Part shown: positions 39,637 through 64,000 of the stretch, piece by piece
Numbering within the stretch: position 1 is the first letter of the stretch
Layout of the letters: each line of letters starts with the position of its first letter
Source: Agreia pratensis
GTDB lineage: Bacteria > Actinomycetota > Actinomycetes > Actinomycetales > Microbacteriaceae
Assembly: GCF_900177685.1 (NCBI RefSeq)
Contig: NZ_FXAY01000001.1
Span: forward strand, 558,001-622,000
Length of the DNA stretch: 64,000 nucleotides
Direction of reading: 5' to 3'
Translations under genes and position numbers: made by a program
Notes under the pieces: model-generated
What the model was told of the DNA's origin: nothing
The model's input: only the letters and a program-made list of their open reading frames with translations
Databases searched by the model: none

Positions 39637-40883
39637 GCCGTGCACCGTTCCATCTCGGCATCGCCCTCGACGGAGCAGGCTGGCATCCCGCCGCCTGGCG
39701 CGTCGACACCGCGCGCCCCGCTGCCCTGTTCGATGCCGACTACTGGGTCTCGCTCGTCGTCGAGGCGCAGGCCGCCGGAGTCGATCTCGTGACGATTGAA
39801 GACTCTTTCGGTCTGCAGACGAATGGCTATGGAGCGTTCGAGCTGCGCGGCGACGAGGTTCGCGGCCGGCTCGACGCCCTTCTGCTCGCCAACACGATCG
39901 CGGCTCTCGTGCCCGGCATCGGCATCGTGCCGACCGTGACCACCACGCACACCGAGCCGTTCCACACGGCCACGGGCATCCAGACGCTCGACCACGTCTC
40001 TGAAGGCTGGGCCGGATGGCGGGTGCAGGTCTCGGGCCGCTCCCACGAGGCCGCCCACGTCGGCCGCCGCGAGATTCCCGCACTCGACCCAGCGCGCACG
40101 GCCACGGGCGCCGACGAGCAGCAGACGGCCCTCATCCGACAGTTGTTCGGCGAGGCCGCCGATGCGATCGAGGTCGCCAGGCGACTCTGGGACAGCTGGG
40201 AGGACGACGCGGTGATCCGCGACGTGCCGACGGGCCGTTTCATCGACCGCGACCGCCTGCATTACGTCGATTTCGAGGGCGAGAACTTCAGCGTGAAGGG
40301 GCCGTCGATCGTGCCGCGCTCGCCGCAGGGCCAGCCGGTCGTGTTCGTGCTGGCTCACCAGAGAGTGCCCTATGAGCTCGCCGTGGCGCAGGCCGACATC
40401 GTGGGCATCACGCCGCACTCCGACGAGCACCTCGAACAGATTCTCGGTGAGCTGGGTGACGCCGAACTGCGGGTCGAGCGCCGCGTCAGCGACCCTCTGC
40501 GCGTCTGGGCCGAGGCCGTCGTGCTCATCGAGGACACGCGTGAGGCGGCCGCGGCAGCCCTCGCGGCGCTCGACGAGCTGCACGGCGCGCCCTACGCATC
40601 CGACGCCGTGATTCTCGCCGACACGGCCGAGAATGTGGCCGCGCAGCTGCTGCGCTGGCAGCAGGCCGGCGTTGCCGGCGTGCGCCTGCGGCCCGCGCGC
40701 CTGCCGCTCGATCTCGAGCGCATCACCAGGGGCGTCGTGCCCGTGCTCGACGAGACCGGCGCGCTCGAGCGACCGAGCGACGCGTCGACCCTCCGCGAGC
40801 GCCTGGGCTTTGCTCCCGCCGCGAACCGCTACGCGACCGCCCGCCCCGAGACCGCCGAACTGATCGAAAGCGCCAGCCGATGA
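39633..40883 (+). CDS. NtaA/SnaA/DszA-family FMN-dependent monooxygenase (2)
   Basis: A 416-residue luciferase-like monooxygenase, shorter than its two paralogues. It has the signature LWDSWEDDAVIRD near residue 188 and the N-terminal segment VDLVTIEDSFGLQTNGYG. Residues 275-400 are less conserved relative to the family and may alter the lid over the flavin. The ATG at 39633 overlaps the DUF1684 stop by 4 bp and its own stop overlaps the third monooxygenase by 4 bp. The much longer open frame upstream is a shadow of DUF1684. Confidence 0.88.
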   Translation: MSRAPFHLGIALDGAGWHPAAWRVDTARPAALFDADYWVSLVVEAQAAGVDLVTIEDSFGLQTNGYGAFELRGDEVRGRLDALLLANTIAALVPGIGIVPTVTTTHTEPFHTATGIQTLDHVSEGWAGWRVQVSGRSHEAAHVGRREIPALDPARTATGADEQQTALIRQLFGEAADAIEVARRLWDSWEDDAVIRDVPTGRFIDRDRLHYVDFEGENFSVKGPSIVPRSPQGQPVVFVLAHQRVPYELAVAQADIVGITPHSDEHLEQILGELGDAELRVERRVSDPLRVWAEAVVLIEDTREAAAAALAALDELHGAPYASDAVILADTAENVAAQLLRWQQAGVAGVRLRPARLPLDLERITRGVVPVLDETGALERPSDASTLRERLGFAPAANRYATARPETAELIESASR

Positions 40884-42283
40884 CCGCATCCTCTTCTTCG
40901 AAGCCCGTCAAGCAGATCCACCTCGCTGCGCACTTTCCCGGCGTCAACAACACCACGGTCTGGAGCGACGAGCGTTCGCAGAGCCAGATCGCGTTCTCGT
41001 CGTTCCGCCACTTCGCGCAGAATGCCGAGCGCGGAAAGTTCGATTTCCTGTTCCTGGCCGAGGGGCTGCGGCTGCGCGAGACGCGCGGCCTCATCCACGA
41101 TCTCGACGTGGTCGGGCGGCCCAACACGCTCGCGATCCTCGCCGCGCTCGCCGGGGTCACCTCGAACATCGGCCTCGTCGGAACGTTGAGCTCGACCTTC
41201 AACGAGCCCTACGAGCTCTCGCGCCAGCTCGCCACTCTCGACCACCTCAGCGGGGGCCGCGCGGGCTGGAATATCGTGACCACCTCGGACGCGTTCCACG
41301 GGGCGAACTTTCGCCGCGGAAAGTTCCTCGACCTCGCCGATCGCTACAGCAGGGCGCAGGAGTTCTTCGATGTCTCGTCGCAGTTGTGGGACAGCTGGGC
41401 CGACGACGCGATCGTGGCCGACAAGGCGTCTGGCGAGTTCGCGCGCACGTCTGGTCTCGGTCTCGTCGACCACCACGGCCCGCAATTCGATGTGACCGGC
41501 TACGCGACGCTGCCGCCGAGCCCGCAGCGGCATCCGGTGATCGTGCAGGCGGGCGATTCGCCCGACGGTCGCGATTTCGCGACCAGCTCGGCCGACGTGA
41601 TCTTCTCGAGGCACGCGGACTTCGACGCCGGGCGCGCGTTCTACGACGACGTGAAAGGGCGATTGGATGCGGTGGGTCGCCCCCGCGATTCGCTCAAGAT
41701 CCTGCCGGCCGCCACCTTCATCCTGGGCGATACGCACGCCGAGGCGCTGGAGCGCTCGCGCGAGATCTCGCGGCTGCAGGTGAGCCCGCAGACCGCCATC
41801 TCGTTTCTCGAGCAGGTGTGGAACACCGATCTCTCGGGCTACGACGTCGAGGGCCCGCTGCCCGAGATCGACCCCGTCGTCACCGCGGAGGGCGGAGCGA
41901 AGGGGCGCGCCTATGTGCACACCGACCCGGTCGCCACCGCGAATGCGTGGCGCGAGCAGGCCTCGGCTAAGGGCTGGTCTATTCGCGAGCTCGTGATCTC
42001 GTTCGCCGCCAAACACACCTTCGTGGGCACCCCGGTTTTCGTTGCCGAGACCATCAACCGGCACGTGCAGGAAGATGCGTCCGACGGGTTCGTTATCGTG
42101 GGGAACACCAACCCGACCGGCCTCGACGAGTTCGTCGACCGGGTCATTCCCGAACTGCAGGAGCGCGGCGTGTATCGCACGGACTACGACGAGGGCGCCA
42201 CCCTGCACGAGACGCTCGGTCTGCCGGCTGTTGCTGCGCGATCAGCCTCGACGGTGGCTGGCGCAGCGTTGGTCTCGGCGTAG
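40880..42283 (+). CDS. NtaA/SnaA/DszA-family FMN-dependent monooxygenase (3)
   Basis: A 467-residue NtaA-type monooxygenase and the most typical of the three. KQIHLAAHFPGVNNTTVW, then FDFLFLAEGLRLRE, the flavin-site segment DHLSGGRAGWNIVTTSD and LWDSWADDAIVAD are all canonical, as is HPVIVQAGDSPDGRDFA. The start overlaps the previous gene by 4 bp and the stop shares one base with the next gene's GTG, so four genes form one tight transcript. A flavin reductase is not present in the window and must be encoded elsewhere. Confidence 0.92.
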   Translation: MTASSSSKPVKQIHLAAHFPGVNNTTVWSDERSQSQIAFSSFRHFAQNAERGKFDFLFLAEGLRLRETRGLIHDLDVVGRPNTLAILAALAGVTSNIGLVGTLSSTFNEPYELSRQLATLDHLSGGRAGWNIVTTSDAFHGANFRRGKFLDLADRYSRAQEFFDVSSQLWDSWADDAIVADKASGEFARTSGLGLVDHHGPQFDVTGYATLPPSPQRHPVIVQAGDSPDGRDFATSSADVIFSRHADFDAGRAFYDDVKGRLDAVGRPRDSLKILPAATFILGDTHAEALERSREISRLQVSPQTAISFLEQVWNTDLSGYDVEGPLPEIDPVVTAEGGAKGRAYVHTDPVATANAWREQASAKGWSIRELVISFAAKHTFVGTPVFVAETINRHVQEDASDGFVIVGNTNPTGLDEFVDRVIPELQERGVYRTDYDEGATLHETLGLPAVAARSASTVAGAALVSA

Positions 42284-43437
42284 TGGCCACTCGAGCAGAC
42301 GTCGTGGTGGTCGGCGGCGGGGCCATGGGCTCCGCCGCCGCCTGGCAGCTCGCTCGGCGAGGCCGCGAGGTGACTCTACTCGAGCGCTTCGGCCCCGGAC
42401 ACACCCAGGGCGCCTCGCACGGGGCGTCGCGCAACTTCAATCTCAGCTACGCCGACGACACGTATCTCTCGTTGCTGCGTGAGGCGCTGCCGTTGTGGCG
42501 CGAGCTCGAGGCGGAGTCGGGCGTCGCCGTTCTCGACCAGGTAGGCCTCGCGAATCACGGGGCGAATCCGGCTTTCGACACGGTGGCGGCGTTGTTGCCG
42601 GGCTACGGTTTCGAGGCCGCGTTTCTCGCTCCGGAGGAGGCCGGCGAACGCTGGCCGGGCATCCGCTTCGACACGCGAGTGCTTTTCACACCGCAGGCCG
42701 GCAGGCTCAACGCGGATGCCGCGGTATCGGCCCTGCAGCGGGCCGCGGCCGCGCGCGGCGCTGCGGTTCGGCACCATTCTCGGGTCGTCGCCATCCGCCT
42801 CGCGTCGCCCGATTCGGTGTTGGTCACCGTACAGCCTGTCGATGAGGTCACCGGCGAGCAGTCGGGAACGGTCGAGACTCTCGATGCTCGCCGAGTCGTC
42901 GTGACCCTCGGCGCCTGGACCTCGAAGCTGCTCGGTTCGACAGTGGCGCTGCCGCGACTCGTTGTGACTCAGGAGCAACCCGCGCACTTCGCCGTGCACG
43001 ACGCAACGCTGTCCTGGCCCGGCTTCAATCACGCGCCGAACCCTCTCGACCCGACTTACGACTATTGGTACTCCGGCGTCTACGGCATGTTCACGCCCGG
43101 GCAGGGCGTGAAGGCTGGATGGCACGGCACGGGCGCGGTCATCGATCCGGAAGCGCGCACGTTCGCATCGGAGCCGGCCCAACTGGCGGCGCTGCAGCGC
43201 TATGCCCGGGAATGGCTGCCGGGGGTCGACGCGGAGACGCTCGTGGAGATCAGCTGCACCTACACGACGACCCCCGACTCGAACTTCGTCGTCGACTCGT
43301 CGGGGCCCCTCTCGGTAGGCGCGGGCTTCTCGGGCCACGGTTTCAAGTTCACCCCGGCGATCGGGCGCATTCTGGCCGACCTCGTCGACGGAGTGGGTGC
43401 GCCGCCCGCGCTCTTCTCGCTGGCCGCGGCGCGCTGA
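42283..43437 (+). CDS. FAD-dependent oxidase, sarcosine / N-methyltryptophan oxidase type
   Basis: A 384-residue D-amino-acid-oxidase-fold flavoenzyme. The dinucleotide site VVVVGGGAMGSAAAWQLARR is at residues 6-25. The SolA/MSOX C-terminal signature GFSGHGFKFTPAIGRILADL is present, with HGASRNFNLSYAD near residue 48. Such enzymes oxidise secondary or N-methyl amino acids to an imine and hydrogen peroxide. The start is GTG 42283, overlapping the stop of monooxygenase 3 by one base. As last gene of the operon it may remove an N-alkyl group or oxidise the freed amino acid (inference). Confidence 0.87.
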   Translation: MATRADVVVVGGGAMGSAAAWQLARRGREVTLLERFGPGHTQGASHGASRNFNLSYADDTYLSLLREALPLWRELEAESGVAVLDQVGLANHGANPAFDTVAALLPGYGFEAAFLAPEEAGERWPGIRFDTRVLFTPQAGRLNADAAVSALQRAAAARGAAVRHHSRVVAIRLASPDSVLVTVQPVDEVTGEQSGTVETLDARRVVVTLGAWTSKLLGSTVALPRLVVTQEQPAHFAVHDATLSWPGFNHAPNPLDPTYDYWYSGVYGMFTPGQGVKAGWHGTGAVIDPEARTFASEPAQLAALQRYAREWLPGVDAETLVEISCTYTTTPDSNFVVDSSGPLSVGAGFSGHGFKFTPAIGRILADLVDGVGAPPALFSLAAAR

Positions 43438-46581: not shown

Positions 46582-47622
46582 GTGCCAGAACCACTCGAAA
46601 CCCCACCCGACTCCGCCTTCACCGTTCGGCCGGCACGAGAAGACGAGTACGAGGCCACCGGCGTTCTCACTACTCTGGGCTTCGCGACGGGCCCCTACGC
46701 CCACCTTCCCCGCCGGCCCGAGCGCCTTGCTCTTGAGCGCGACGCGGGCGCTCGAGCGGGCGATGGTGGCCTGCTGGTGGCCGTCGACGACGCCACAGGG
46801 CGACTCCTCGGCACTGCCACGGTCACTCGCGCCGAGAACCCGATCTCACGGCAGGCGCGCGATGGCGAAGCCGAGCTGCGACTCGTCGCCGTCGACCCCG
46901 CCGCCCGGGGTCGGGGCATCGCGCAGGCGCTCGTGCAGGCATCCATCGACCTGGCCTCGAGCTGGGGCGTGCCCGCGCTCGTGCTCGACACGGGGCCCCT
47001 CAACCACACCGCTCAGCGCAACTACCTTCGCGCCGGGTTCGAACGAGTCGTCGCACGCGAGCTCGGCACCGAGACCGGGATCGGCACCCCGCAGGTATAC
47101 AGGTATGCGTTCGACGAGGTCGCACCCGTACGCATCCGGCTCGTGCGCCCGAGTGAGCTCGACATCGTGGCCCGTCTAACCGTCGAGGCGTACACGAACG
47201 ACTACGACCTCTCCGAGAGCTACGTGCTGTCTTTGGCCGAGGTGCACGGCCGCGCCAGCTCAGACGAGGTATGGGTCGCCGAGGACACCGCGACGGGCGC
47301 CATTCTCGGCACGGTCTGGACGCCCCGCCCCGGCGCCCGCATCTCGCAGGTCGCGCACGACGACGAGCTCGACTTCAGGCTGCTGGCCGTGGCCCCGGAT
47401 GCGCGGGGCCGGGGAATCGGCGAAGCGCTCGTGTCGCACGTGGTCGCCCTCGGTCGCATCCGGGGCGTGAAGCGCGTGGTGATGAACACCGGCAGCACGA
47501 TGCTTGCGGCCCAGAGGCTGTACACGCGGCTCGGTTTCGTTCGTCTGCCGGAGCGCGAGGAACGCATCGAGGTGGAGCCGGGCAGGTTCGTCGATATCTT
47601 CGCCTTCGGGCTCGATCTATAG
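46582..47622 (+). CDS. Tandem-GNAT N-acetyltransferase
   Basis: A 346-residue protein with two GNAT folds. The first acetyl-CoA loop is in LRLVAVDPAARGRGIAQAL (about residues 95-113) and the second in FRLLAVAPDARGRGIGEAL (about 268-286). Each is followed by an LNHTAQRNYLRAGFERV or TMLAAQRLYTRLGFVRL helix. It is unclear whether both halves are active. The start is GTG 46582, six bases after TAGTCT, another leaderless-looking promoter. A hairpin downstream separates it from the convergent amino-acid ABC operon. Confidence 0.87.
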   Translation: MPEPLETPPDSAFTVRPAREDEYEATGVLTTLGFATGPYAHLPRRPERLALERDAGARAGDGGLLVAVDDATGRLLGTATVTRAENPISRQARDGEAELRLVAVDPAARGRGIAQALVQASIDLASSWGVPALVLDTGPLNHTAQRNYLRAGFERVVARELGTETGIGTPQVYRYAFDEVAPVRIRLVRPSELDIVARLTVEAYTNDYDLSESYVLSLAEVHGRASSDEVWVAEDTATGAILGTVWTPRPGARISQVAHDDELDFRLLAVAPDARGRGIGEALVSHVVALGRIRGVKRVVMNTGSTMLAAQRLYTRLGFVRLPEREERIEVEPGRFVDIFAFGLDL

Positions 47623-47716: not shown

Positions 47717-48745
47717 CTAGTCGGTCTTCGGCAGTCCCGGAGGGTTGATCTCGCTCTTCGGGATCGACTCGCTGTCGAGGCCCCAGCGGTCGAGTACCTC
47801 CTGGTACTGGCCGCCCTCGATCGTCGCGTTGATCACGAGTCCGACCGCGTCGATCAGCCCGTTGCCCTTCTTGGTGGCCGCTGCGATGTCAGCAGTCTGC
47901 GGCCATCCGCCGCTGACGGTGCCCACCTGCTTGGTATCGCCGGTCGAGGCCGCGGCGTAAGCCCCGCTCGCATTCGGGTAGAAGTACACATCGGCTCGTC
48001 CAGACTGGAGTGCGAGATTCGCGGCCGCACTGTCGTTGTAGTACACGAGCTCGGCGGGCTTCTTGCCGGCGGCCGCGAGCTCCTCGTTCCAGGCGAGCAG
48101 AATCTTCTCCTGGTTCGTACCGGAGTCGACGATGATCGTCAGACCGGAGATGTCTGCCGATCCCTTGATCGATGTGATGTCGCTGTCGGCCTTCACATAG
48201 AAGCCGAGCAGGTCGACCCGGTAGCTGGCGAAGTCATACAGCTCCTTGCGCTCCTCGGTGACGGTCACGTTGTTGAGGATGATGTCGTACTTGCCCGACT
48301 GGATTCCGAGCGGCCAGTCGGCCCAGTCGACCGACACGGGGTTGTACTCGAGACCCAAGCCGTCTGCAACGAGAGCCGCGAAGTCCGCCTCGCTTCCGAG
48401 TGGCGTCGTGTTGTCGTCAGATGCCGCGAAGACCAGGGGCGGGGCACCGCTCTTCACGGTCTGGGCGACCGTGAGCTTGCCTGCTTCGATCGGTTGGAAT
48501 CCGCTGGCCTTGAGGGATGCGACCGCGTCGGCGACGGGGTCGATACTGGGTCGATCGTCGGCATTCTTGGTCGTGAGATCGAACGACGTGGCCGCCGCGA
48601 CCTGCTCCTCTGCCGAGCCAGTGGCTTCGACGTCGGGCGAGTTCGAACTGTTCGCATTGGCGGCGATGGCGATGCCGCCGCCGGCCAGGGCCACGACGAC
48701 GACTGCGCCGACGATAACCCCGATCTGCTTCTTGTTGATTGCCAT
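47717..48745 (-). CDS. Polar amino acid ABC transporter substrate-binding protein
   Basis: A 342-residue family-3 solute-binding protein. The body contains VDWADWPLGIQSGKYDIILNNVTVT and YDFASYRVDLLGFYVK, the pattern of cystine/polar amino acid binding proteins. Unusually, the N-terminus is a membrane anchor (IGVIVGAVVVVALAGGGIAI) with no lipobox cysteine, so it is probably tethered by an uncleaved helix or released. It starts at ATG 48745. It follows the ATPase gene in a permease - ATPase - binding protein operon; a sulfur-containing amino acid is the suspected ligand (inference from context). Confidence 0.9.
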   Translation of the reverse strand: MAINKKQIGVIVGAVVVVALAGGGIAIAANANSSNSPDVEATGSAEEQVAAATSFDLTTKNADDRPSIDPVADAVASLKASGFQPIEAGKLTVAQTVKSGAPPLVFAASDDNTTPLGSEADFAALVADGLGLEYNPVSVDWADWPLGIQSGKYDIILNNVTVTEERKELYDFASYRVDLLGFYVKADSDITSIKGSADISGLTIIVDSGTNQEKILLAWNEELAAAGKKPAELVYYNDSAAANLALQSGRADVYFYPNASGAYAAASTGDTKQVGTVSGGWPQTADIAAATKKGNGLIDAVGLVINATIEGGQYQEVLDRWGLDSESIPKSEINPPGLPKTD

Positions 48746-48821: not shown

Positions 48822-49651
<830 letters not shown>

Positions 49652-49655
<4 letters not shown>

Positions 49656-51313
49656 GATCCACTCCCCAGAACGGTGTCGTGACGTCGGTTCTTCTCGGCC
49701 GCGAGCGGGTCGTCGCCTGTTTCGTCGCCGAGGCGAGCCCACTGCTGTTTCACCCAGGCCGTGGCCCGTTGGATGGGCGTCGGTGGCAGTTCGCGATGCG
49801 CTCCGCGGGCGTAGTGACGCTCGACGTAGAACTGGATGATCGACAGCACGGTCGTGATGATCGCGTACCAGACCACCGCGACGAGCAGCATGGGGATCAC
49901 CCGCTGATTGCGGTTGTAGATCACCTGCACCGTGTAGAAGAGTTCGGGCAGCGCCACGACGAACACCACCGAGGTGCCCTTCACGAGGCCGATGACCTCG
50001 TTGAAGAAGTTGGGCAGAATGGCCCGCGCCGCCTGGGGCAGGATGATGCGGAAGAACCGCACTCGGCGCGGCAGACCGAGAGCGGCAGAGGCCTCGAGCT
50101 GGCCCTGATCGACAGACAGGATGCCGCCGCGAATGATCTCCGCGAAATAGGCGGCCTGGTGCAGCGTGAGGCCGATCGTCGCCGCTGCGAAGGCGGTGAT
50201 CAAGGTGGTCGTCGAGAACTCCACCAACCAGAAATCCGTAGTGAACGGAGTTCCGAGGCCCAGCGTCGGGTAGAGGTAGCCCAGGTTGTACCAGACGAGA
50301 ATCTGCACCAGCAGCGGCACGGAACGGAAGAACCAGATGTAGACGTAGGCGGCCCCGCTCAACAGCGGTGACTTCGAGAGCCTGAAGTTCGCGAGCACCG
50401 CCCCAAGGATGAACCCGCCGATGACGGACACGACCGTGAGGCCGAGGGTCACGCCGAGGCTGTTGAGCACCGACTGCGAGAAGAAGTACTCGGCGAAGAC
50501 GTTCCACTCGTACTGCTTGTTCGTGACGAGTGACCACGCGAACTGCAGCACCGCGAAGGCGACGAGCGCGCTGAGCACCCACCGCCACCAGTGCCGGGTC
50601 GGCACCACCTTCACGGCCCTGCGCTGGTCGAGTAGGCCGCCCGCGGCACCCCCTCCCCCTCGCTGGTCGAGTAGGCCGCCCGCGGCCGTATCGAGACCAT
50701 CGGATGCGGTCTCGATACGCCGGCTCGTTCCTCGCGCGGCTACTCGACCGACGCCTTCGTCATGGGCCGCGGTGATGCCGGCCACATCGAGGGGTTCGCC
50801 ATCCAGGCTCTTGGCGAACCCGTGCACGACGACCTCTTCAGGGTCGAGCGTGGTGTCGAAGAGCGGTGTGTACCCGGTCTGAAAGTACAGACGCTTCGCT
50901 TCGGGCTGGCGCGGCCCTGTCGTGAGATAGGCCCGCGTGTATCCGCGGCGCACCGCCTCTGCCTCGAGCTCTGCGACCACTCGACGCGCGAGCCCCTGTC
51001 TCCGATGCGCCGACGAGGTCCAGATGCGCTTCAGCTCGGCCGTGCGTTCGTCGAATCTCTTATATGCGCCTCCGGCTATGGCGACGCCGTCGCGCATGAG
51101 CAGCACGAACGCTCCGCCCTCGTCGGCAGAGAAAGCCGATGCCGGGTACCGCGTGATCTCGGCCGACGCCTTCTCTCCGAAGAACTCGCCATAGCGCGCG
51201 TCGTACTCCTGCTCGAGTTCACGCAGCAGAGGCTCGGCGATGGGGTCGTCGGCCGAGACGTAGACGAACCTGTCGGTGCTGTGGCTCGTCAGGCCGAGGG
51301 ATTCGATAGGCAT
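49652..51313 (-). CDS. N-acetyltransferase fused to polar amino acid ABC permease
   Basis: A 553-residue fusion. Residues 1-165 form a GNAT acetyltransferase (RIWTSSAHRRQGLARRVVAE with acetyl-CoA loop at 104-109, and EAKRLYFQTGYTPL). Residues about 187-232 are a linker that translates a dispersed palindromic repeat and contains GGLLDQR twice. Residues 234-553 are a complete PAAT permease (YIWFFRSVPLLVQILVWYNLG; EAA loop EASAALGLPRRVRFF). The ATG at 51313 has AAGGAGG six bases upstream. A GTG at 50614 (VKVVPTRHWWRW) could start a separate permease, so one or two polypeptides are possible. Promoter candidate: TTGGCC-18-TAGCGT. Confidence 0.85.
50621..50755. repeat. Dispersed palindromic repeat inside the fusion gene
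   Basis: Contains CGCTGGTCGAGTAGGCCGCC twice, then CGTATCGAGACC, a short centre, GGTCTCGATACGCCGGCTCG, TTCCTCGCGCGGC and TACTCGACC. It is the same family as the intergenic copies at 22825, 34462, 58871 and 61241, but here it is read through in frame on the minus strand, where the arms give no stop. Confidence 0.85.
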
Positions 51314-51473
51314 GTCCGCCTCCTTCACTGTCTCGGCACGGGCCGTGTCGAGGTGGATGTGACGCTAGGCTCGACGGCGCGACTCGGCCAAGCAGTGTCG
51401 TTCACAATTCGTCACGTCGTCACGCGAGGTCACAAACCTCGATTTCGATGGACGAAACGTCGACGGTTGTGTC
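51314..51473. promoter_or_regulatory. Divergent region between fusion operon and FAD protein
   Basis: A 160-bp gap. On the minus strand a -35 TTGGCC and -10 TAGCGT (18-bp spacer) precede the fusion gene by about 45 bases. Upstream of them, GTGACGACGTGACGAAT resembles, with one base more between repeats, the TGACACATGACGTAA form of the site found at 37119 and 38727. On the plus strand the ATG of the FAD protein lacks a ribosome site. Confidence 0.45.
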
Positions 51474-53579
51474 ATGCCGCACGCGCCTACCTCCCTCATC
51501 GACCCGCCCGAGTTCCAGATCGCCCTTATCGGCGGCGGCCCTCGGGGAGCCGGCGTTCTCGAGCGTCTCGGTGCGAACATTCCCGAGCTGTGGCGATCCG
51601 GTGCGCGGATCGTCATCCACGTGATCGACCCGCACCCGGCCGGTCCGGGGCGCATCTGGAGGTTCGCACAATCGCCCCTCCTGAAACTCAACTCGATGGC
51701 CGCCGATGTCACGATGTTCACCGATGAGTCATCGACCATCGAGGGCCCCGTGCGCCCCGGGCCCTCGCTGATCGAGTGGGCCGGGCTTGTGAACGCGGGA
51801 GACATCGCGATCCCCCGGGTGGATGCGCGCCTGCGCCAGGAGATCGAGAACCTCGCCCCCGCCAGCTTTCCGACACGGCGCCTGCAGAGCCTCTACCTCA
51901 GCTGGTTCTTCGCGGATGCCGGGGGTCTGCTTCCCGAGACCGTCACGGTCGACGTGCACCGGGCATCCGCGGTCGAGACCGTCGACGACGGGCCGACCCA
52001 TCGCATCCTGCTCGACGACGGGGCCTCGATCACGGCCGACATCGTGCTGTACTCGCTCGGCCACACCGGCACCGAGGCCGAGCCCGAGCACGCCGACCTC
52101 ATCGACTTCGCGCGTCGACGCGAACTGTTCTACCTGCCGCCGGCCTTCACAGCGGATGCCGACACCCGGCCGATCGTGCCCGGCCAGCGGGTGATCGTGC
52201 GGGGCATGGGCCTCGCGGCGGTCGACCTCACCGTTCTGCTCACCGAGGGCAGGGGCGGCCGCTTCGATCGAGGCGACGACGGGGTGCTGCGCTACACGGC
52301 ATCCGGGCTCGAGCCGCGGCTCTACTTCGGATCGCGCCGCGGGGTGCCGTATCACTCGAAGATCTCGTCGACTCTCGTGGGAGAGAAGCCCGAGGCGCGG
52401 TACTTCACTCCGGCGATCGCGCGTTCTCTCGAAGAGACACTGCCCGCGCTCGACCTCGGCGTCGATGTGTGGCCGCTCATCGCGAAAGACATGCTGTGGG
52501 GCTACTATCGCGAACTGTTCACGGGGCATCCCGACCGGGTCGAATCGAGCTGGGATTCGTTCGCGCGAGCATTCGACCGCCTCGATCCGCGCGCGCTCCT
52601 GCTCGCATCGCCGCACACCGAGGTTCACGACAGCACGCCCCGCGGCCATGCCGTTCCCTCGATCGATGACCTCGCCAGTGACGACACACTCCTCGCGCGC
52701 GACGCGCAGGCCTTCGTCGATCTGGTCGAAGCAAGCGTGGCGTTCGCCGACGACAGGCTGTTCCTTCCCGAGCTCGACCGACCGCTGGGAGCCGCGCTGG
52801 TTGCAGACCCGGGCGAGTTGCAAGATCTCGTGCGCGACTACATCCGCACAGACCTCGCCCTGCGCACCCGGCCCGAGCACAGCGCCACACTCGGTCTGTT
52901 CATCGCCCTGCTCACGAGCCTCTTCACCCTCTCCGACATCATCGACTCGCCCAAGTGGACCGCTCAGTCACGAGTCCGCGACATCCACGGCTGGTGGCTC
53001 GGCTACTTCAGCTTCATCGCCAGCGGTCCGCCCGCGCACCGCCTCGAAGAACTCGTCGCACTCTCGGAGGCCGGCGTCGTCGAGTTCCTCGGGGCAGGAA
53101 TCTGGGTGGAAGCCGATGAGGATGCAGGGATCTTCCGCGCCGGCAGTGCGACGACGCCGGTCACCGTCACCGCGAGCGCCCTGGTGGATGCGCGGCTGCC
53201 CGCGACCGCGATCTCGCGCAGCGACAACGAGCTGCTGAGGTCGCTGGTCGCGAGCGGAGCCGGACTCGAGGAGGTCGTCACCGACGGAGCCTTCTCGGCG
53301 AGCACGGGCAGGTTGTCGGTGCGACAGCTCGACACGAGGATTCTCGGAGCTGGCGGCGAGCATTCGTCTCGGCTGTACGCGATCGGACCGTATACGAACT
53401 CTCCGTTCGTCGGGGCGTTCTCGCGTCCGCGCACCAATGCGATCTCGTTCAGGGAGAACGACAAGGTCGCCCGCGCCATCCTGAGGCGCCTGTCCGAACT
53501 GGCAGAGGAGGGCGGCCTCGATACGCCCGCCCGCCCCGCGGAAGCGACCAGACCGGCGCACCCCGCGCTGATCGACTAG
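51474..53579 (+). CDS. FAD/NAD(P)-binding domain protein
   Basis: A 701-residue protein with the N-terminal dinucleotide fold of the FAD_NAD(P)-binding family: FQIALIGGGPRGAGVLERLG at residues 14-33, then FAQSPLLKLNSMAADVTMF. A second nucleotide segment, VIVRGMGLAAVDLTVLLTEG, lies near residue 240. The rest is helical and unrecognised. Members often lie beside siderophore or sulfur genes, but no reaction is established. It is divergent from the fusion operon. Its last residues (PALID, then TAG) are encoded by a sequence matching the arm of the dispersed repeat. Confidence 0.82.
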   Translation: MPHAPTSLIDPPEFQIALIGGGPRGAGVLERLGANIPELWRSGARIVIHVIDPHPAGPGRIWRFAQSPLLKLNSMAADVTMFTDESSTIEGPVRPGPSLIEWAGLVNAGDIAIPRVDARLRQEIENLAPASFPTRRLQSLYLSWFFADAGGLLPETVTVDVHRASAVETVDDGPTHRILLDDGASITADIVLYSLGHTGTEAEPEHADLIDFARRRELFYLPPAFTADADTRPIVPGQRVIVRGMGLAAVDLTVLLTEGRGGRFDRGDDGVLRYTASGLEPRLYFGSRRGVPYHSKISSTLVGEKPEARYFTPAIARSLEETLPALDLGVDVWPLIAKDMLWGYYRELFTGHPDRVESSWDSFARAFDRLDPRALLLASPHTEVHDSTPRGHAVPSIDDLASDDTLLARDAQAFVDLVEASVAFADDRLFLPELDRPLGAALVADPGELQDLVRDYIRTDLALRTRPEHSATLGLFIALLTSLFTLSDIIDSPKWTAQSRVRDIHGWWLGYFSFIASGPPAHRLEELVALSEAGVVEFLGAGIWVEADEDAGIFRAGSATTPVTVTASALVDARLPATAISRSDNELLRSLVASGAGLEEVVTDGAFSASTGRLSVRQLDTRILGAGGEHSSRLYAIGPYTNSPFVGAFSRPRTNAISFRENDKVARAILRRLSELAEEGGLDTPARPAEATRPAHPALID

Positions 53580-53688: not shown

Positions 53689-54348
53689 TCAGCGGCGGAG
53701 CGCCTTGCGGGCGAGGTAGTTGCCCAAGAACTGCACCAGCTGCACGATCACGATGATCACGAGCACAGCGGCCCAGGTGACAACGGGGTGGAACTGCCGG
53801 TAGCCGTATTGAATCGCGAACGTCCCGAGTCCGCCGCCGCCCACGTAGCCGGCCACCGCCGACATGTCGACGAGAGCAACCACGATGAACGTGTACCCGA
53901 GAATCAGCGGGCCCAACGCCTCGGGAATAAGCAGCGTCAGCATGATGCGGCTCCGACTCGCGCCGACCGACCTCGCGGCCTCGATGACTCCGGGCTGCAC
54001 GGTGAGCAGGTTCTGCTCCACGATGCGACTGATACCGAACGCGGCTGCCAGCGACAGCGTGAAGATGATCGCTGTGTTTCCGATTCCTGTGCCGGTCACG
54101 AAGCGCGCCAGTGGCTGAGCCGCCGCGAGAAAGATGATGAACGGAATCGGACGGAACACGTTGACGAGCACGTTGAGCACGCCGAAAACGGGGCGGTTCG
54201 AGAAGAGGCTGTTCGACCGGGTCGTGTACAGACCGAGACCGAGGATGAGTCCGCCGAGGCCTCCGAAGATCAGGCTGAGGCCCACGATGTAGAGCGTCTC
54301 GTAGCTGGCCTGCCACAGCTTGGGCAGCAGAGGTATCAGGTCATTCAT
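53689..54348 (-). CDS. metI: Methionine ABC transporter permease
   Basis: A 219-residue MetI-type permease with five predicted helices. GLSLIFGGLGGLILGLGLYTT, then RPIPFIIFLAAAQPLARFVTGTGIG and the EAA-type loop EAARSVGASRSRIMLTLLIPEALG are typical. It starts at ATG 54348, overlapping the metN stop by 8 bp. With MetN and MetQ it forms an importer for L- or D-methionine and related sulfur compounds. Confidence 0.95.
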   Translation of the reverse strand: MNDLIPLLPKLWQASYETLYIVGLSLIFGGLGGLILGLGLYTTRSNSLFSNRPVFGVLNVLVNVFRPIPFIIFLAAAQPLARFVTGTGIGNTAIIFTLSLAAAFGISRIVEQNLLTVQPGVIEAARSVGASRSRIMLTLLIPEALGPLILGYTFIVVALVDMSAVAGYVGGGGLGTFAIQYGYRQFHPVVTWAAVLVIIVIVQLVQFLGNYLARKALRR

Positions 54349-55378
54349 GGCTCGGTGCCTCCGTGACGTCGACCTTGGTCGCGATCGTGGCGAGTGCGCG
54401 GTCGACAGCATCGGCGTAACCCGTCAGCGCGAGGGTGAGATGTCCGAAGACACGGCCCCGGATGTCGTTGATGCCGCCGTAGATCAGCTCGAACGCGACG
54501 CCGGCCTGAGCCAGATCGGAAAAGACCGCCCCTTGCGATGTGTTGCCGTCGCGGAACGACAGGGTCACGATGCGACCCGGATGCCGCTGCCGCAACGCAA
54601 CGAGTTCGGCGTCGGAGGGCACGCCCCGCACGACGGTCGACACGAAGCGCTGCGACGACGCCTCCGTCGGCTTCGAGAAGACGTCGAACACGTCGCCCTG
54701 CTCCACGATGCGCCCGCCATCCATGACCGCGACCTTGGTGGCCAGCGTCTGGATGACATCCATCTCGTGCGTGATGACCACGATCGTGACGCCGAACTCG
54801 GTGTTCACGCGCTTCAACAGCTCGAGCACCTCGTGGGTCGTCTCGGGGTCGAGGGCGCTGGTCGCCTCGTCGGCGAGCAGGATGCGGGGGCTCGTCGCGA
54901 GGGCACGGGCGATGCCGACCCGCTGTTTCTGCCCACCCGACAGCTGCTCGGGGTAGTTGCGCGCTTTGTCGGAGAGGCCGACGAAGTCGAGCAGCTCGGC
55001 GACGCGCGGAGCGATGTCGGCGCGCGGCGTCTTCGCGACCTCGAGGGGGTACGCGACGTTTCCGGCGACGGTCTTCGAGTTGAAGAGGTTGAACTGCTGA
55101 AAGATCATGCCGATGCCGAGGCGCAGTCGGCGCAACTCGCTTTCTTTCATGCGGGTCACCTCATCGCCGTCGACCAGGATGCTGCCGCTGGTCGCGTCTT
55201 CGAGAGCGTTGATGAGCCGCACGAGAGTGCTCTTGCCCGCTCCCGAGTAGCCGATGATCCCGTAGATGTCTCCCGCTTCGATGTCGAGGTTCAGCCCTTG
55301 GACGGCGTGCACGACGGCACCTCCGCGACTCGATGGCGGATACGACTTGGTGACGTCGCGCAGACTGATGAGAGGCAT
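54341..55378 (-). CDS. metN: Methionine ABC transporter ATPase with NIL domain
   Basis: A 345-residue MetN. Walker A is IIGYSGAGKSTLVRLINALE (about residue 40), signature LSGGQKQRVGIARAL, Walker B ILLADEATSALDPET and H-loop VVITHEMDVI. The C-terminal about 80 residues form the NIL regulatory domain, in which methionine binding inhibits transport; its hallmark here is FELIYGGINDIRG. It begins 8 bp after metQ and overlaps metI, giving a metQ-metN-metI operon. Confidence 0.96.
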   Translation of the reverse strand: MPLISLRDVTKSYPPSSRGGAVVHAVQGLNLDIEAGDIYGIIGYSGAGKSTLVRLINALEDATSGSILVDGDEVTRMKESELRRLRLGIGMIFQQFNLFNSKTVAGNVAYPLEVAKTPRADIAPRVAELLDFVGLSDKARNYPEQLSGGQKQRVGIARALATSPRILLADEATSALDPETTHEVLELLKRVNTEFGVTIVVITHEMDVIQTLATKVAVMDGGRIVEQGDVFDVFSKPTEASSQRFVSTVVRGVPSDAELVALRQRHPGRIVTLSFRDGNTSQGAVFSDLAQAGVAFELIYGGINDIRGRVFGHLTLALTGYADAVDRALATIATKVDVTEAPSHE

Positions 55379-55386
55379 CGAGCCGA

Positions 55387-56283
55387 TCAGCCCTTGGCCT
55401 TGATGTCAGCCTCGACCGTATCGAGCGAGGACTGCAGGTCGGTGACCGGAGTCTTCACGAACACGGCCGTTCCGCCCGAGTTCTCCTGCACCGCGTCGGT
55501 GACGGTCTTCGTGTCCTGGTAGATCGATACGAGCTTCTTGAATGTCTCGTTGTCCTTGTCTTCGGCGCGCGCCGCGAAGATGTTCACGTAGGGCAGCGCG
55601 TTGGGGTCGGAAGGGTCGTCCTGCGCGATCGCGTCGTCGAAGGTGAGCCCGGCATCCGCCACGAAGTCGTTGTTGATGATCGCGGCGGCCACGTCGGGCA
55701 GCGAGGTGGGAGTGAGCGATGCCTCGAGCGTCGTGACCTTCACCGTGGACTTGTCGGTGTCGACGTCGTCGACGGTCGAGAGGGAGCTTCCTCCGTCTTT
55801 CAGCTTGACGAGGCCGGCGGACTGCAGCACGAGCAGTGCACGCGACAGGTTCGACTCGTCGTTCGGAATGGCGACGGTGTCGCCCTTCTTGATGTCCTTC
55901 ACCGACGTGTACTTCGTGGAGTACAGCGCGAGCGGGTAGATGGCCGTGGCTCCGACGGGTACCAGGTCTTCGCCGGATGCCTCGTTGTACTGGGCGAGGT
56001 AGACGATGTGCTGGAACTGGTTGAGGTCGATCTCACCTTCGGTGAGTGCCGGGTTGGGCTGCGGGTACTCGGTGAAGTCGACGATGTCGACCGAGATGCC
56101 CTCGTCTGCCGCCGCCTTCTTGTAGATCTCCCAGTAGGGGTCGCTGGCGCCGACGACGCCGAGCTTCACGGGGTTGTCGGCAGTGCCCTTCTCGGCGTCG
56201 GAAGAGGATCCGGCGCACCCTGCGAGGGCTGCGATGAGGGGAAGAGTGGCTGCTGCGGCCAGGATCTTCTTGGAGAGAGACAT
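55387..56283 (-). CDS. metQ: Methionine-binding lipoprotein, NlpA/MetQ family
   Basis: A 298-residue lipoprotein. The signal peptide ends in IAALAGC with the lipid cysteine at 23. The mature part has VKLGVVGASDPYWEIYKKAA and the ligand-site segments DFTEYPQPNPALTEGEIDLNQFQH and IPNDESNLSRALLVLQSAGL. The ATG at 56283 has AAAGGAAG six bases upstream. The 5' leader contains three tandem 17-bp repeats just before the ribosome site. It is divergent from the M1 peptidase. Confidence 0.95.
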   Translation of the reverse strand: MSLSKKILAAAATLPLIAALAGCAGSSSDAEKGTADNPVKLGVVGASDPYWEIYKKAAADEGISVDIVDFTEYPQPNPALTEGEIDLNQFQHIVYLAQYNEASGEDLVPVGATAIYPLALYSTKYTSVKDIKKGDTVAIPNDESNLSRALLVLQSAGLVKLKDGGSSLSTVDDVDTDKSTVKVTTLEASLTPTSLPDVAAAIINNDFVADAGLTFDDAIAQDDPSDPNALPYVNIFAARAEDKDNETFKKLVSIYQDTKTVTDAVQENSGGTAVFVKTPVTDLQSSLDTVEADIKAKG

Positions 56284-56296
56284 GGTGCTTCCTTTC

Positions 56297-56345
56297 GTGG
56301 AGCAGGCGCTGTTGTGAAGCAGGTGCTGTAGTGGAGCAGCTGTCC
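56297..56345 (-). repeat. Three tandem 17-bp repeats in the metQ leader
   Basis: GTGGAGCAGGCGCTGTT (56297-56313), GTGAAGCAGGTGCTGTA (56314-56330) and a shortened GTGGAGCAGCTGTCC (56331-56345) follow one another directly. They end 14 bases before the metQ ATG, so they would be in the untranslated leader. I cannot match them to a known riboswitch. Confidence 0.7.
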
Positions 56346-56466
56346 ACGCTACGGACACCCCGAACGGGTCACGAAACGAAGATGTAACAAAGCGACTTGC
56401 CCCGTGTCTGGTGCTTGCTGACAGAATCCCGATAAAGTCGCGACAGTTCAATGAGACGGGGATTGT

Positions 56467-61371: not shown

Positions 61372-62336
61372 GTTCCGTAGTGCTCGGCGAGGCGTCGCAG
61401 CCCCTCGTCGAGGCTCACCGCGGGCTGCCACTGCAGCTCGGCACGAGTGCGGCGCTGGTCGAACCAGTGCGCGGTCGAGAGCTGCTCCGCCAGAAAGCGC
61501 GTCATCGGCGGCTCGTCCACTCCTGGTTTGACCCGCCAGACGGCCTCGATGAGAGATCCCGCTGCCCGAGCGACACCGGCGGGAATGCTCCACGCGGGCG
61601 CGGCAACGCCTGCCGCCGCGCAGATTCCGCCCAGCAGTTCGGCCACCGGGCGCGGCTCGCCATTGGTGATCACATAAGCGTTGCCGTGCACCTCGTCGAC
61701 GCGCTCGAGTGCGGCGGCGATCGCCGAAGCCGCGTTGTCGATGTAGGTCGAGTCGATCAGGGCGGCGCCGCGGTCGAGCAAGGGAAGCCTGCCCGCGCGG
61801 GCCCGCTCGACGATGCGCTCGACGAGTTGCGTGTCTCCCGGACCCCACACGAGATGCGGGCGCACAGCCACGACACGCAGAGACTCCGAGTCGGCACCGA
61901 GCGCCAGCAGTTCCGCGAGCGCCTTCGTGCGTGCGTATTCGCCGCGCGCGTGCTGCGGGTCGGCAGGCTGGGCATCGTCGCCGGCGATGGATGCCCCCGC
62001 GTGCGCCACCGACGGCGACGACACGAACACGAGACGGCCGGCTCCGGCGTCATGCATCGCAGCGAGGAGAGTGCGGGTTCCCTCGACGTTGACGGCCTCG
62101 AACTCGGCCGGGTCGCCCGCCAACGAGACCTTCGCGGCCAGGTGCACCACGGCATCCACGCCCTGGGCGGCGCGCGCGACGTCGGCCCGCGACGTCAGCG
62201 AGCCGAGAGCGTCGTCCACCCCGACGACACCGGATGGCCGCCGCTGGAAGGTGCGCACCTCGTGCCCGGCCCGCACGATCTCGCGGGCGACGGCTCCTCC
62301 GAGAAAGCCGCTGGCTCCTGTGACGAGAACCTTCAC
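61359..62336 (-). CDS. NAD(P)-dependent short-chain reductase, OleD-like
   Basis: A 325-residue extended short-chain dehydrogenase of the 3-beta-HSD type. The nucleotide site is TGASGFLGG (residues 6-14) and the catalytic pair is in EYARTKALAE (YxxxK), with SSPSVAHAG before it. Its GTG at 62336 overlaps the stop of the AMP-ligase gene by 4 bp. That order (ligase then reductase) and the SPSVxH segment match OleD, which reduces 2-alkyl-3-oxoalkanoates in olefin synthesis. A sterol- or sugar-type epimerase is the alternative. Confidence 0.82.
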   Translation of the reverse strand: MKVLVTGASGFLGGAVAREIVRAGHEVRTFQRRPSGVVGVDDALGSLTSRADVARAAQGVDAVVHLAAKVSLAGDPAEFEAVNVEGTRTLLAAMHDAGAGRLVFVSSPSVAHAGASIAGDDAQPADPQHARGEYARTKALAELLALGADSESLRVVAVRPHLVWGPGDTQLVERIVERARAGRLPLLDRGAALIDSTYIDNAASAIAAALERVDEVHGNAYVITNGEPRPVAELLGGICAAAGVAAPAWSIPAGVARAAGSLIEAVWRVKPGVDEPPMTRFLAEQLSTAHWFDQRRTRAELQWQPAVSLDEGLRRLAEHYGTPSR

Positions 62337-64000
62337 GGCGCGCTCAGCTTCTCGCCGGAGAGCACGCCCTCGGCCCAACGCGACAGGGCGGATCGGTCGA
62401 TCTTCGAGTTGTGTCGGATGTCGGTGGGCAGCGCGGGAACCACCAGCACCGCCGCGATGTCGAGCCCTGCCGCGTGGCGCACAGCAGCACCCAGGTCGGA
62501 GTCGGCGAGTGCGGCACGATGCGCGGGCGGGTCGGTCTCGAGCACCACCACGAGCTGCTGTGTTCCCCGAGGGCCGATGCCCGCGAGCGCGACCCTCCCG
62601 ACACCCAGCACCGACTCGATCTTCTGCTCCGGTCCGACGGGGGTGACGACTCCCCCGGCCGTGACGACGACATGCGGAAGTCGGCCCTCGACCCAGAGGC
62701 GGCCCTGAGCGTCGAGGTGCCCGACATCTCCGGTGCGGTGCCAGCGTTCGGTCGGCGTTCCGTCGGAATCTGCCCACACGGAGTCGGCGTCGGCAATGCG
62801 GTTCGTGGCCCAGAGCCGGTCGTATGACTGCTTCAAGTGGGGAGCGGAGAGCACGATCTCACCGGTGACGCCGGTCCGATCGCTCGGTTCGGCAGTCGGC
62901 TGGCCGTGCTCATCGAGCCCCGCTATGCGCACGCGCACCGATCCGGCCGGCGCTCCCACGCACACGCCGCCGGCGTGCTCGCCTGCGGGCAACGCAGCAG
63001 CATCCTGGGCTGCGGCGCGAATGCCCTCGAGCGTGACGTCGGTCATGAGCAGACCCTCGGTCATGCCGTAAGGGGTGTGCGGAGTGGCGTTCGGCATCAG
63101 CCGACCCGCCGCGGCGAGAAGAGTCTCGGGCACGGGAGCGCCGGCCGAGAGAAAAGTCTTCACGCCCGCGAGCGCCGCGGTGTCGGCGGCGCCGAGGGCA
63201 TCCGCTGTGGCGACCACGTTCGCGAGGGCGGCCGGCGAGAGGAACACGACCGTCGCATCCACCGCCGCCGCGGCCTCGGCCGTGGCCTTCGCGGTGAGGG
63301 TGCGCGGCGAGGTGACGTTCATGTCGGGGGTCACCGACCGCGCGCCGAGGGCGGGGCCGAGCAGCGCGAAAGGGGCGAATCCGGCGACGAGGCCCGTGCC
63401 GACCCCGATGTCGTATTGCGACGAGAGCGCGTCGCGAACAGCCTCGAGCTGGGCGTGCGTGTAGATGACGCCCTTGGCCGGTCCGGTCGATCCCGAGGTG
63501 AAGAGAACGGCGGCGACAGCGGATGCCGCGGGCGGCTCGGGCAGCGACTCGTCGGCGCCCAGCCGCGCGAGTTCGGGCAGGGAGTGCCGTACGCCGAGCG
63601 CGAGGGCGGTGGCACGCGGAAGGGTGGTGGTCGAGATCTTCTGTCCGGGCCACGAGAAAGCGCGGGCGACCGAGAGGCCAGGGAGGGCGCCGATCACATG
63701 GTCGGGGCGCGCGCCGCGCACGGCGCGGGTCAGACCGGGCAGTCCGAGGCCGGCATCGGCGACGACGACGATTGCGCCGATGCGCAGGCACGCGTAGAGC
63801 ACCGCGGTGAGGTCGGCGCTCGGCGGAACGAGAAGGGAGACGCGGTCGCCGGGCTTCACCCCGGCGCGCACGAGGCCCGCGGCGAGCTGGCGCACACGGG
63901 TGGAGAGGAGCTTCCATGAGACGTCTCGCCGCGGCTTCATGTCGACCAGCGCGATGTCGGTGCTGTCGCGCCGCTCGTCGAGCACGCTCCACAGCGGACC
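62333..64000 (-). CDS. AMP-dependent ligase, OleC-like, 5'-truncated at window edge
   Basis: At least 555 residues of an acyl-adenylate-forming enzyme. The AMP-binding core is VLFTSGSTGPAKGVIYTH, followed by TPYGMTEG, WHRTGDVGHLD and the C-terminal RHNSKIDRSALS lysine segment. The frame runs open past 63985 to the window end, reading GPLWSVLDERR, a normal ligase opening, so the start lies outside. OleC makes beta-lactones from 2-alkyl-3-hydroxy acids; in actinobacteria it is often fused behind an OleB hydrolase, which could explain the continuing frame. A fatty-acyl-CoA ligase is the alternative. Confidence 0.82.
   Translation of the reverse strand, partial: GPLWSVLDERRDSTDIALVDMKPRRDVSWKLLSTRVRQLAAGLVRAGVKPGDRVSLLVPPSADLTAVLYACLRIGAIVVVADAGLGLPGLTRAVRGARPDHVIGALPGLSVARAFSWPGQKISTTTLPRATALALGVRHSLPELARLGADESLPEPPAASAVAAVLFTSGSTGPAKGVIYTHAQLEAVRDALSSQYDIGVGTGLVAGFAPFALLGPALGARSVTPDMNVTSPRTLTAKATAEAAAAVDATVVFLSPAALANVVATADALGAADTAALAGVKTFLSAGAPVPETLLAAAGRLMPNATPHTPYGMTEGLLMTDVTLEGIRAAAQDAAALPAGEHAGGVCVGAPAGSVRVRIAGLDEHGQPTAEPSDRTGVTGEIVLSAPHLKQSYDRLWATNRIADADSVWADSDGTPTERWHRTGDVGHLDAQGRLWVEGRLPHVVVTAGGVVTPVGPEQKIESVLGVGRVALAGIGPRGTQQLVVVLETDPPAHRAALADSDLGAAVRHAAGLDIAAVLVVPALPTDIRHNSKIDRSALSRWAEGVLSGEKLSAP

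Follow-up and report, generated by a model that had tools for sequence, protein, structure and literature searches.

In Agreia pratensis, a GNAT acetyltransferase and an amino-acid ABC permease share one open frame, and the segment joining them is encoded by short palindromic repeats. The gene runs from 51313 to 49652 on the minus strand of the window, the 64,000-nucleotide stretch of DNA analysed here, and its reading as a single frame, put forward in a preliminary description of this DNA, was borne out. As read from the genes, several unrelated proteins of Agreia have joints that hold in-frame palindromes of two families, A and B, and at a given joint the family differs between species. We take the GNAT-permease fusion to be a real two-domain protein, presumably translated as one polypeptide. 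The explanation that we favour, and consider fairly probable, is that a tethered GNAT-permease would have arisen from overlapping genes, with the palindromes as REP-like passengers carried in frame.

The locus comprises the following features, in window positions:

49652 to 51313, minus strand: fusion gene, 553 residues from the ATG at 51313 (558 from the GTG at 51328), identified by its open frame and by orthologous fusions
50873 to 51220, minus strand: GNAT acetyltransferase domain (PF00583, 5.4e-14, 52.9 bits, cut-off 20.7)
49811 to 50416, minus strand: ABC permease domain (PF00528, 2.4e-22, 80 bits, cut-off 26.4)
48822 to 49655, minus strand: ABC ATPase gene, EhuA/TcyN-like, below equivalog cut-offs
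47717 to 48745, minus strand: amino-acid substrate-binding protein (TIGR01096), PRK11260-like, below cut-offs

In the 558-residue form, which begins at the in-frame GTG upstream of the ATG and ends at the stop at 49652-49654, Acetyltransf_1 (PF00583) covers residues 37-152 and BPD_transp_1 (PF00528) residues 305-506, both above the Pfam cut-offs. By profile, the first domain is a member of the GNAT family, and acetyltransferase activity is predicted; its best PDB match is 1yx0 (YsnE, 5.9e-9). The permease scored 56.6 bits with the NCBIfam model TIGR01726 (HEQRo_perm_3TM, cut-off 42.2) and remained below the equivalog cut-off of the cystine ABC permease model NF011680 (129.6 vs 300). Among the profiles shown for the permease, the ATPase and the binding protein, none reached an equivalog cut-off. 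GGAGG precedes the fusion start in all seven Agreia fusions, and the fusion stop overlaps the ATG of the ATPase gene (ATGA, 49652-49655). A second, double GNAT protein is encoded at 46582-47622 on the other strand, close to the end of the operon. Further genes near the fusion, at 40880-43437 and 53689-56451, are those of an NtaA/DmoA-family monooxygenase, an amino-oxidase-like protein and a MetI/MetN/MetQ-like transporter.

The two type A palindromes at the join form a head-to-head pair with 9 nt between them, and half of the palindrome is present in a second copy:

50618 to 50755, minus strand: repeat-derived linker, residues about 187-232 (pLDDT block means 26-36)
50708 to 50749, plus strand: type A palindrome, 42-nt variant (contig 608708-608749)
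50665 to 50698, minus strand: type A palindrome, 34-nt variant, opposite orientation (contig 608665-608698)
50617 to 50647, plus strand: second copy of half the palindrome (94% to 50656-50686)

The half-palindrome copies lie 39 nt (13 codons) apart, an arrangement seen in A. pratensis only among the seven Agreia fusions. Type A palindromes read GGTCTCGATACG...CTACTCGACC and type B palindromes CCTTCGACAAGCTCAGGGA, with units of 34-45 bp in the two Agreia families. With at most one mismatch, CTGGTCGAGTAG occurs 10 times in the window (0.28 expected), and the repeat was indeed found at four further places, as previously claimed (22.8-22.9, 34.5, 58.9-59.0 and 61.2-61.4 kb). It had also been proposed that the linker is this repeat read in the one frame without stops. 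This holds for the whole linker, where the sense frame has no stop and the other two frames have one each. It does not hold for the repeat itself, as each single consensus unit is open in five of six frames. AlphaFold2 modelling with 11 sequences (mean pLDDT 57.1) left the linker disordered and the permease at low confidence. The GNAT domain was mostly confident, with block means mostly of 70-94 and three blocks at 57-58 or 70.

The preliminary description suggested comparing the locus in relatives. A full-length fusion match (E <= 1e-60) was found in seven of the eight Agreia genomes, A. pratensis included; G007 was the sole genome without one at this threshold. In the seven fusions, neither the GNAT part (477 nt) nor the permease part (960 nt) changes in length. 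The linkers measure 186, 159, 159, 177, 153, 201 and 159 nt. Each length is divisible by three; the sense frame of the linker is free of stops in all seven cases, and both other frames are closed in five. Five distinct linker lengths require at least four length changes and, if frame were irrelevant, the chance of all of them keeping it would be, as a rough estimate, (1/3)^4 = 0.012. Frame keeping at this gene alone is thus modest evidence for the fusion. The A. pratensis linker is partly read in a different frame than those of its relatives, with shifts that cancel to -12 nt, plus 39 nt for the duplication. In four pairs of sequences, dN/dS was 0.070-0.120 for the GNAT part and 0.012-0.111 for the permease part, which supports purifying selection on both.

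Type A is present in the linkers of A. pratensis, VKM Ac-1783, Leaf210 and G006 (degenerate in the latter), and type B in those of A. bicolorata, Leaf283 and PsM10. Linker type conflicts with the gene's own tree over A. bicolorata, a type B species that groups with three type A species (100/99), and we counted this conflict against our best explanation. On the OleBC tree rooted by G007, linker type of the GNAT-permease gene needs one change; the fork uniting the three type B species, A. bicolorata included, is supported at only 69/67. Sliding identity gave no clear breakpoint for a linker swap by recombination in A. bicolorata.

The fusion is also found outside Agreia. In a family search of 398 genomes, the full-length one-frame matches listed came from Agreia, one genome of g15 and three of g21; linkers shared with named records identify these two genera as Leucobacter and Gulosibacter. 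Among the best 80 of 361 named loci, 9 were fused, 16 had separate genes and 55 had no GNAT in the upstream DNA, which was short in some of them. The nine fused loci were five of Agreia and those of Leucobacter weissii, L. soli, Gulosibacter sp. 10 and G. chungangensis; type A and B core motifs, the only motifs counted, were absent from all four non-Agreia fusions, a count from which the Gulosibacter fusion L018 was left out. They were likewise absent from the three fusions among 24 Leucobacter loci (of 30 returned), two of which are L. soli and L. weissii again. In most unfused relatives the GNAT and permease genes have a four-base overlap (NTGA), so that a single frame shift would fuse them; this overlap was present in 16 of 17 separate pairs (from 21 loci), 11 of 16 and 16 of 18, in sets that share loci.

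On trees of 47 loci, the fusion state needs four changes, whether the GNAT or the permease tree is used. The two trees disagree, the Agreia GNAT grouping with Cryobacterium and two other genera and the Agreia permease with Compostimonas, which raised the possibility that the two parts differ in origin. Tree groups picked for testing after the first tree had been viewed gave the following results: Agreia and Compostimonas GNATs held together were not rejected (p-AU 0.073), the wider GNAT group with Agromyces/g79 was rejected (p-AU 0.0099), and so was an Agreia and Cryobacterium permease group (5.8e-5). Several loci are unusual. In Gulosibacter L017 and L018, tandem GNAT copies precede the permease, one separate and one fused. 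The Leucobacter locus L241 (G431) matches GNAT-permease as one stretch with a TAA inside; it was classed as separate, lacks the NTGA overlap and is possibly a recent split or join. At L084 (Cryobacterium MAG RYN_54), GNAT and permease are separate and the permease frame has no start codon near the match, for which a frameshift, coupling or an assembly error are possible reasons.

The same palindromes were then found in other Agreia proteins, of which the following are encoded by A. pratensis:

62333 to 63985 of the window, minus strand: OleB-OleC-like protein, AMP-ligase half; the joint of this protein contains a type A pair at contig C10 622009-622093
L159 1337-5197, minus strand: OleB-OleC-like protein (alpha/beta-hydrolase and AMP-ligase), also L209-L216
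L040 250-1998, plus strand: NadB, L-aspartate oxidase (TIGR00551 above cut-off), also L192-L198
L165 198-2423, minus strand: flavin monooxygenase, N-terminal part without Pfam match, also L202-L208

Across species, both families occur in the GNAT-permease, the OleB-OleC-like protein and NadB, and a single family in the flavin monooxygenase, peptidase C26, ResB and an Lhr-like helicase. Coding on either side of a repeat was scored by a hexamer model, with 19 frames of the window as its training set and cut-offs of our own choosing. Among 126 loose type A units in the stretches examined, which cover part of the A. pratensis genome, seven (at four places) had coding-like sequence and an open frame on both sides; 28 were coding-like on one side and 91 on neither. 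The four places are the GNAT-permease, the OleB-OleC-like protein, NadB and the flavin monooxygenase. In Leaf283, 8 of the 93 exact type B units examined (118 in the genome) were in frame with coding on both sides, at six places: OleBC, ResB, an APH-aminotransferase protein, an IF-2B/MtnA-like protein, an Lhr-like helicase and peptidase C26. This count leaves out the GNAT-permease region, and the NadB copy is not among the places listed. The IF-2B/MtnA-like case is weak, the repeat lying ahead of the domain. In A. pratensis, 1 of 12 exact type B units was in frame with coding on both sides (peptidase C26). The in-frame type B repeats of ResB, the APH-aminotransferase protein, the Lhr-like helicase and peptidase C26 are those of L282, L287, L305, L312 and L322; two species have them in peptidase C26.

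The hydrolase and AMP-ligase protein, which we take to be OleB-OleC-like, matches olefin beta-lactone synthetase models below cut-off. The type A pair in its A. pratensis joint lies just past the window end (64000), and the joint peptide, GRVAARGTSRRIETTSDGLDTAAGGLLDQR, is one residue from the linker peptide of the GNAT-permease fusion. Its joints measure 129 nt (A), 147 (A and B), 102, 102, 111 and 153 (B) and 105 (A remnant), and 93 nt without A or B motif in G007, one of the eight genomes. In NadB, palindromes lie between the FAD and C-terminal domains, in frame in all seven Agreia loci compared, with joints of 153 and 240 nt (A), and 84, 75, 129 and 165 nt (B); the G006 joint, of 114 nt, resembles A in its peptide and lacks the core motif. 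Outside Agreia, the NadB joint was measurable in 12 of 21 loci and spans 69-123 nt in 11 of them; at L219 (G015, another genus) it reaches 339 nt and, by eye, holds in-frame palindromes related to type A. The monooxygenase joint has type A in two of seven Agreia genomes and no A or B motif in five. One stop inside the matched stretch was flagged in four of these seven genomes; in all seven, an open frame spans the joint and extends upstream for at least 227 residues. Throughout the genus, the joints of the three proteins are multiples of three. Because in other Agreia the joints of the OleB-OleC-like protein and the monooxygenase are continuous with neither A nor B present, the palindrome appears to have entered an existing linker in both.

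The A. pratensis genome holds 87 exact-ended type A units, against none in a reversed-pattern control. Numbers of exact type A and type B units in the eight Agreia genomes are:

A. pratensis: 87 and 12
A. bicolorata: 2 and 28
Leaf210: 10 and 17
Leaf283: 25 and 118
PsM10: 24 and 60
VKM Ac-1783: 84 and 6
G006: 0 and 1
G007: 0 and 0

A Y1_Tnp (PF01797) transposase was found in none of the eight genomes, 5 of 14 control genomes being positive. A RAYT-driven REP system was therefore rejected for the Agreia palindromes.

The preliminary description went on to attribute the fusion to a mobile palindrome, which the present comparison upholds only in part: the linker of the fused protein is palindrome-encoded, and causation by the palindrome does not follow. 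It named relatives with the same fusion and no repeat as evidence against such an origin. These exist outside the genus, in the Leucobacter and Gulosibacter fusions, and not inside it, all seven Agreia linkers having A or B. We infer that the palindrome of the GNAT-permease is a passenger rather than the cause. The non-Agreia fusions speak for this, as do the continuous joints free of A and B at two other Agreia genes; the lack of a repeat-free fusion among the seven of Agreia was counted against it.

In our preferred reading, the fusion would stem from two genes overlapping by four bases (NTGA), which frame changes would have joined in at least three genera. Since a unit has no stops in five of six frames, in-frame copies in a tolerant linker could survive as an encoded spacer, and the two families would have become spacers more than once in Agreia, in several proteins whose joints they share.

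Alternatively, a type A pair could have created the fusion in the Agreia ancestor by landing at the overlapping stop and start, shifting the GNAT frame and replacing both tails, with type B later replacing A in one lineage. The repeat at the join of all seven Agreia fusions is in keeping with this course of events. So is the outermost genome, G006, which keeps a degenerate type A pair with the same total length (159 nt); the insertion looks old because G006 does so with no exact type A unit. Moreover Compostimonas, the sister of Agreia in the permease tree, has the two genes unfused, with an NTGA overlap. However, the fusion occurs elsewhere without A or B, and at two other Agreia genes the palindrome entered joints that are continuous in its absence. 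We therefore regard such an ancestral weld as possible and clearly less probable than a passenger origin. Still more doubtful is a wider proposal, in which transposase-less palindromes would be a continuing source of linkers in Agreia, and probably in other Microbacteriaceae, two unrelated families swapping in frame at shared joints of unrelated enzymes and, in at least one case, an insertion welding GNAT and permease into a cargo-acetylating transporter-enzyme.

Two protein products from the one gene would call for a start inside it, and the candidate codon is the following:

50612 to 50614, minus strand: GTG codon (Val of VKVVP), candidate internal start of a 320-residue permease, GTG in all seven fusions

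The GTG at 50614 and its weak AGGG are present as first described, and in type B linkers an AGGGA precedes this codon by 7 nt. However, the AGGG of A. pratensis is only 2 nt upstream, a Shine-Dalgarno-like sequence is not conserved (none in L009 and L010), and GTG accounts for 141 of the 258 valine codons in these permeases. In the unfused permeases L034 and L035, AVKVVPTRHW is internal and the NTGA start lies far upstream of it. No in-frame stop follows the GNAT, so ordinary termination would not release the separate 20-kDa GNAT of the earlier two-protein reading, and termination-reinitiation would lack its stop. Of that reading, the part that stands is an additional 35-kDa permease started at this GTG beside the fusion, which we think unlikely. 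The GTGA at 50614 was also considered as a relic of an NTGA overlap and dropped, as L034 and L035 carry the motif internally; any GTG valine followed by lysine reads GTGA, so it is uninformative.

The palindrome pair folds at -55.8 kcal/mol (z -5.4), with no shuffle equally good, as expected if it served mainly as an RNA hairpin in the transcript, for stability or pausing, with coding as a by-product. Such a role is very improbable, as A and B alternate, arrangements and lengths differ and the frame is kept; an Rfam search of 49000-52000 gave no match up to E 1. Finally, repeats are assembly hazards, and an assembly or sequencing error joining two genes was rejected as scarcely credible, the fusion being present in seven genomes with different linkers.

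Returning to the passenger explanation, the product would be one protein in which a cytoplasmic GNAT is attached, through a disordered linker, to the N-terminal end of an amino-acid ABC permease; the genes of the ATPase and the binding protein would share its operon. By hydropathy, the first membrane segment spans residues 246-264; the 25 residues before it contain five K/R against one D/E, suggesting a GNAT on the cytoplasmic side. A single permease gene would imply a probable homodimer, and hence two GNAT domains per transporter. The two acetyltransferases at the inner mouth of the transporter may N-acetylate the imported amino acid, in which case import would be coupled to acetylation. Both this topology and the mobility of the repeats are deduced from the genes. 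In Bacillus, a GNAT gene adjoins those of a cystine-class ABC transporter and an NtaA/DmoA-type monooxygenase in operons where the proteins are separate. With the NtaA/DmoA-family monooxygenase and MetNIQ-like genes near the fusion, these operons lead us to guess that the substrate is a sulphur or S-modified amino acid. The Agreia locus resembles them in its GNAT beside permease and ATPase and in profile matches that include cystine carriers. It differs in its fused protein and in its monooxygenase, which lies about 8 kb off (at 40880, within 40880-43437) on the other strand.

The intracellular parasite Rickettsia is the best-known source of in-frame palindromes. The Agreia sister species provide natural replicates, the same protein having different repeat linkers and, in some species, none. 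It thus becomes testable whether linkers simply tolerate palindromes or are tuned by them, and whether palindromes create gene fusions. With its fusion in three genera, the GNAT-permease is a candidate system in which an imported amino acid would pass straight to the acetyltransferase.

The closest relatives of the fusion are the unfused GNAT and amino-acid ABC permease pairs of Microbacteriaceae, which have the same domains in the same order and differ by their separate frames, mostly with NTGA overlap. OleBC is a known fusion of Micrococcales, a joined enzyme pair (PMC7064751). It resembles the GNAT-permease in joining enzymes, and the joint of its Agreia homologue contains the same palindrome peptide; it differs in that the enzymes are others and the fusion is known and independent of the repeat (G007).

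REPs of the GTAG and CGTC superfamilies are described as small palindromes, often in head-to-head pairs, mostly intergenic and some intragenic, the GTAG REPs being linked to RAYT transposases (PMC3733652); the word 'actinobacteria' does not occur in the main text of that source. Type A shares with them the small palindromic unit, the many copies, frequent pairing and, by the coding-score estimate, a mostly intergenic location. The Agreia palindromes are like REPs in size, head-to-head pairing and intragenic copies, and differ in that none of the eight Agreia genomes has a Y1_Tnp match. Rickettsia palindromic elements (RPEs), as presented in PMC3733652 and PMC10969869, are short, many-copy palindromes in frame inside unrelated protein genes, where they encode an extra peptide; they are about 150 bp long, encode a conserved peptide and belong to an intracellular alphaproteobacterium. 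Like them, the Agreia palindromes are in frame in protein genes whose homologues are uninserted, and protein products carrying the insert are predicted from the genes. The same palindrome peptide is found in the GNAT-permease and OleB-OleC-like proteins of A. pratensis, whereas NadB and the monooxygenase use other frames, so that an RPE-like conserved peptide is not seen. In-frame palindromes are thus already known as RPEs and intragenic REPs (PMC3733652, PMC10969869), and no report of them in Actinobacteria was found in the open-licence literature. What appears to be new in Agreia, judging from the genomes compared, is that palindromes of only 34-45 bp are in frame in an actinobacterium without a Y1 transposase, in different frames in different genes, and that the same joint can hold one family in some species and the other family in others.
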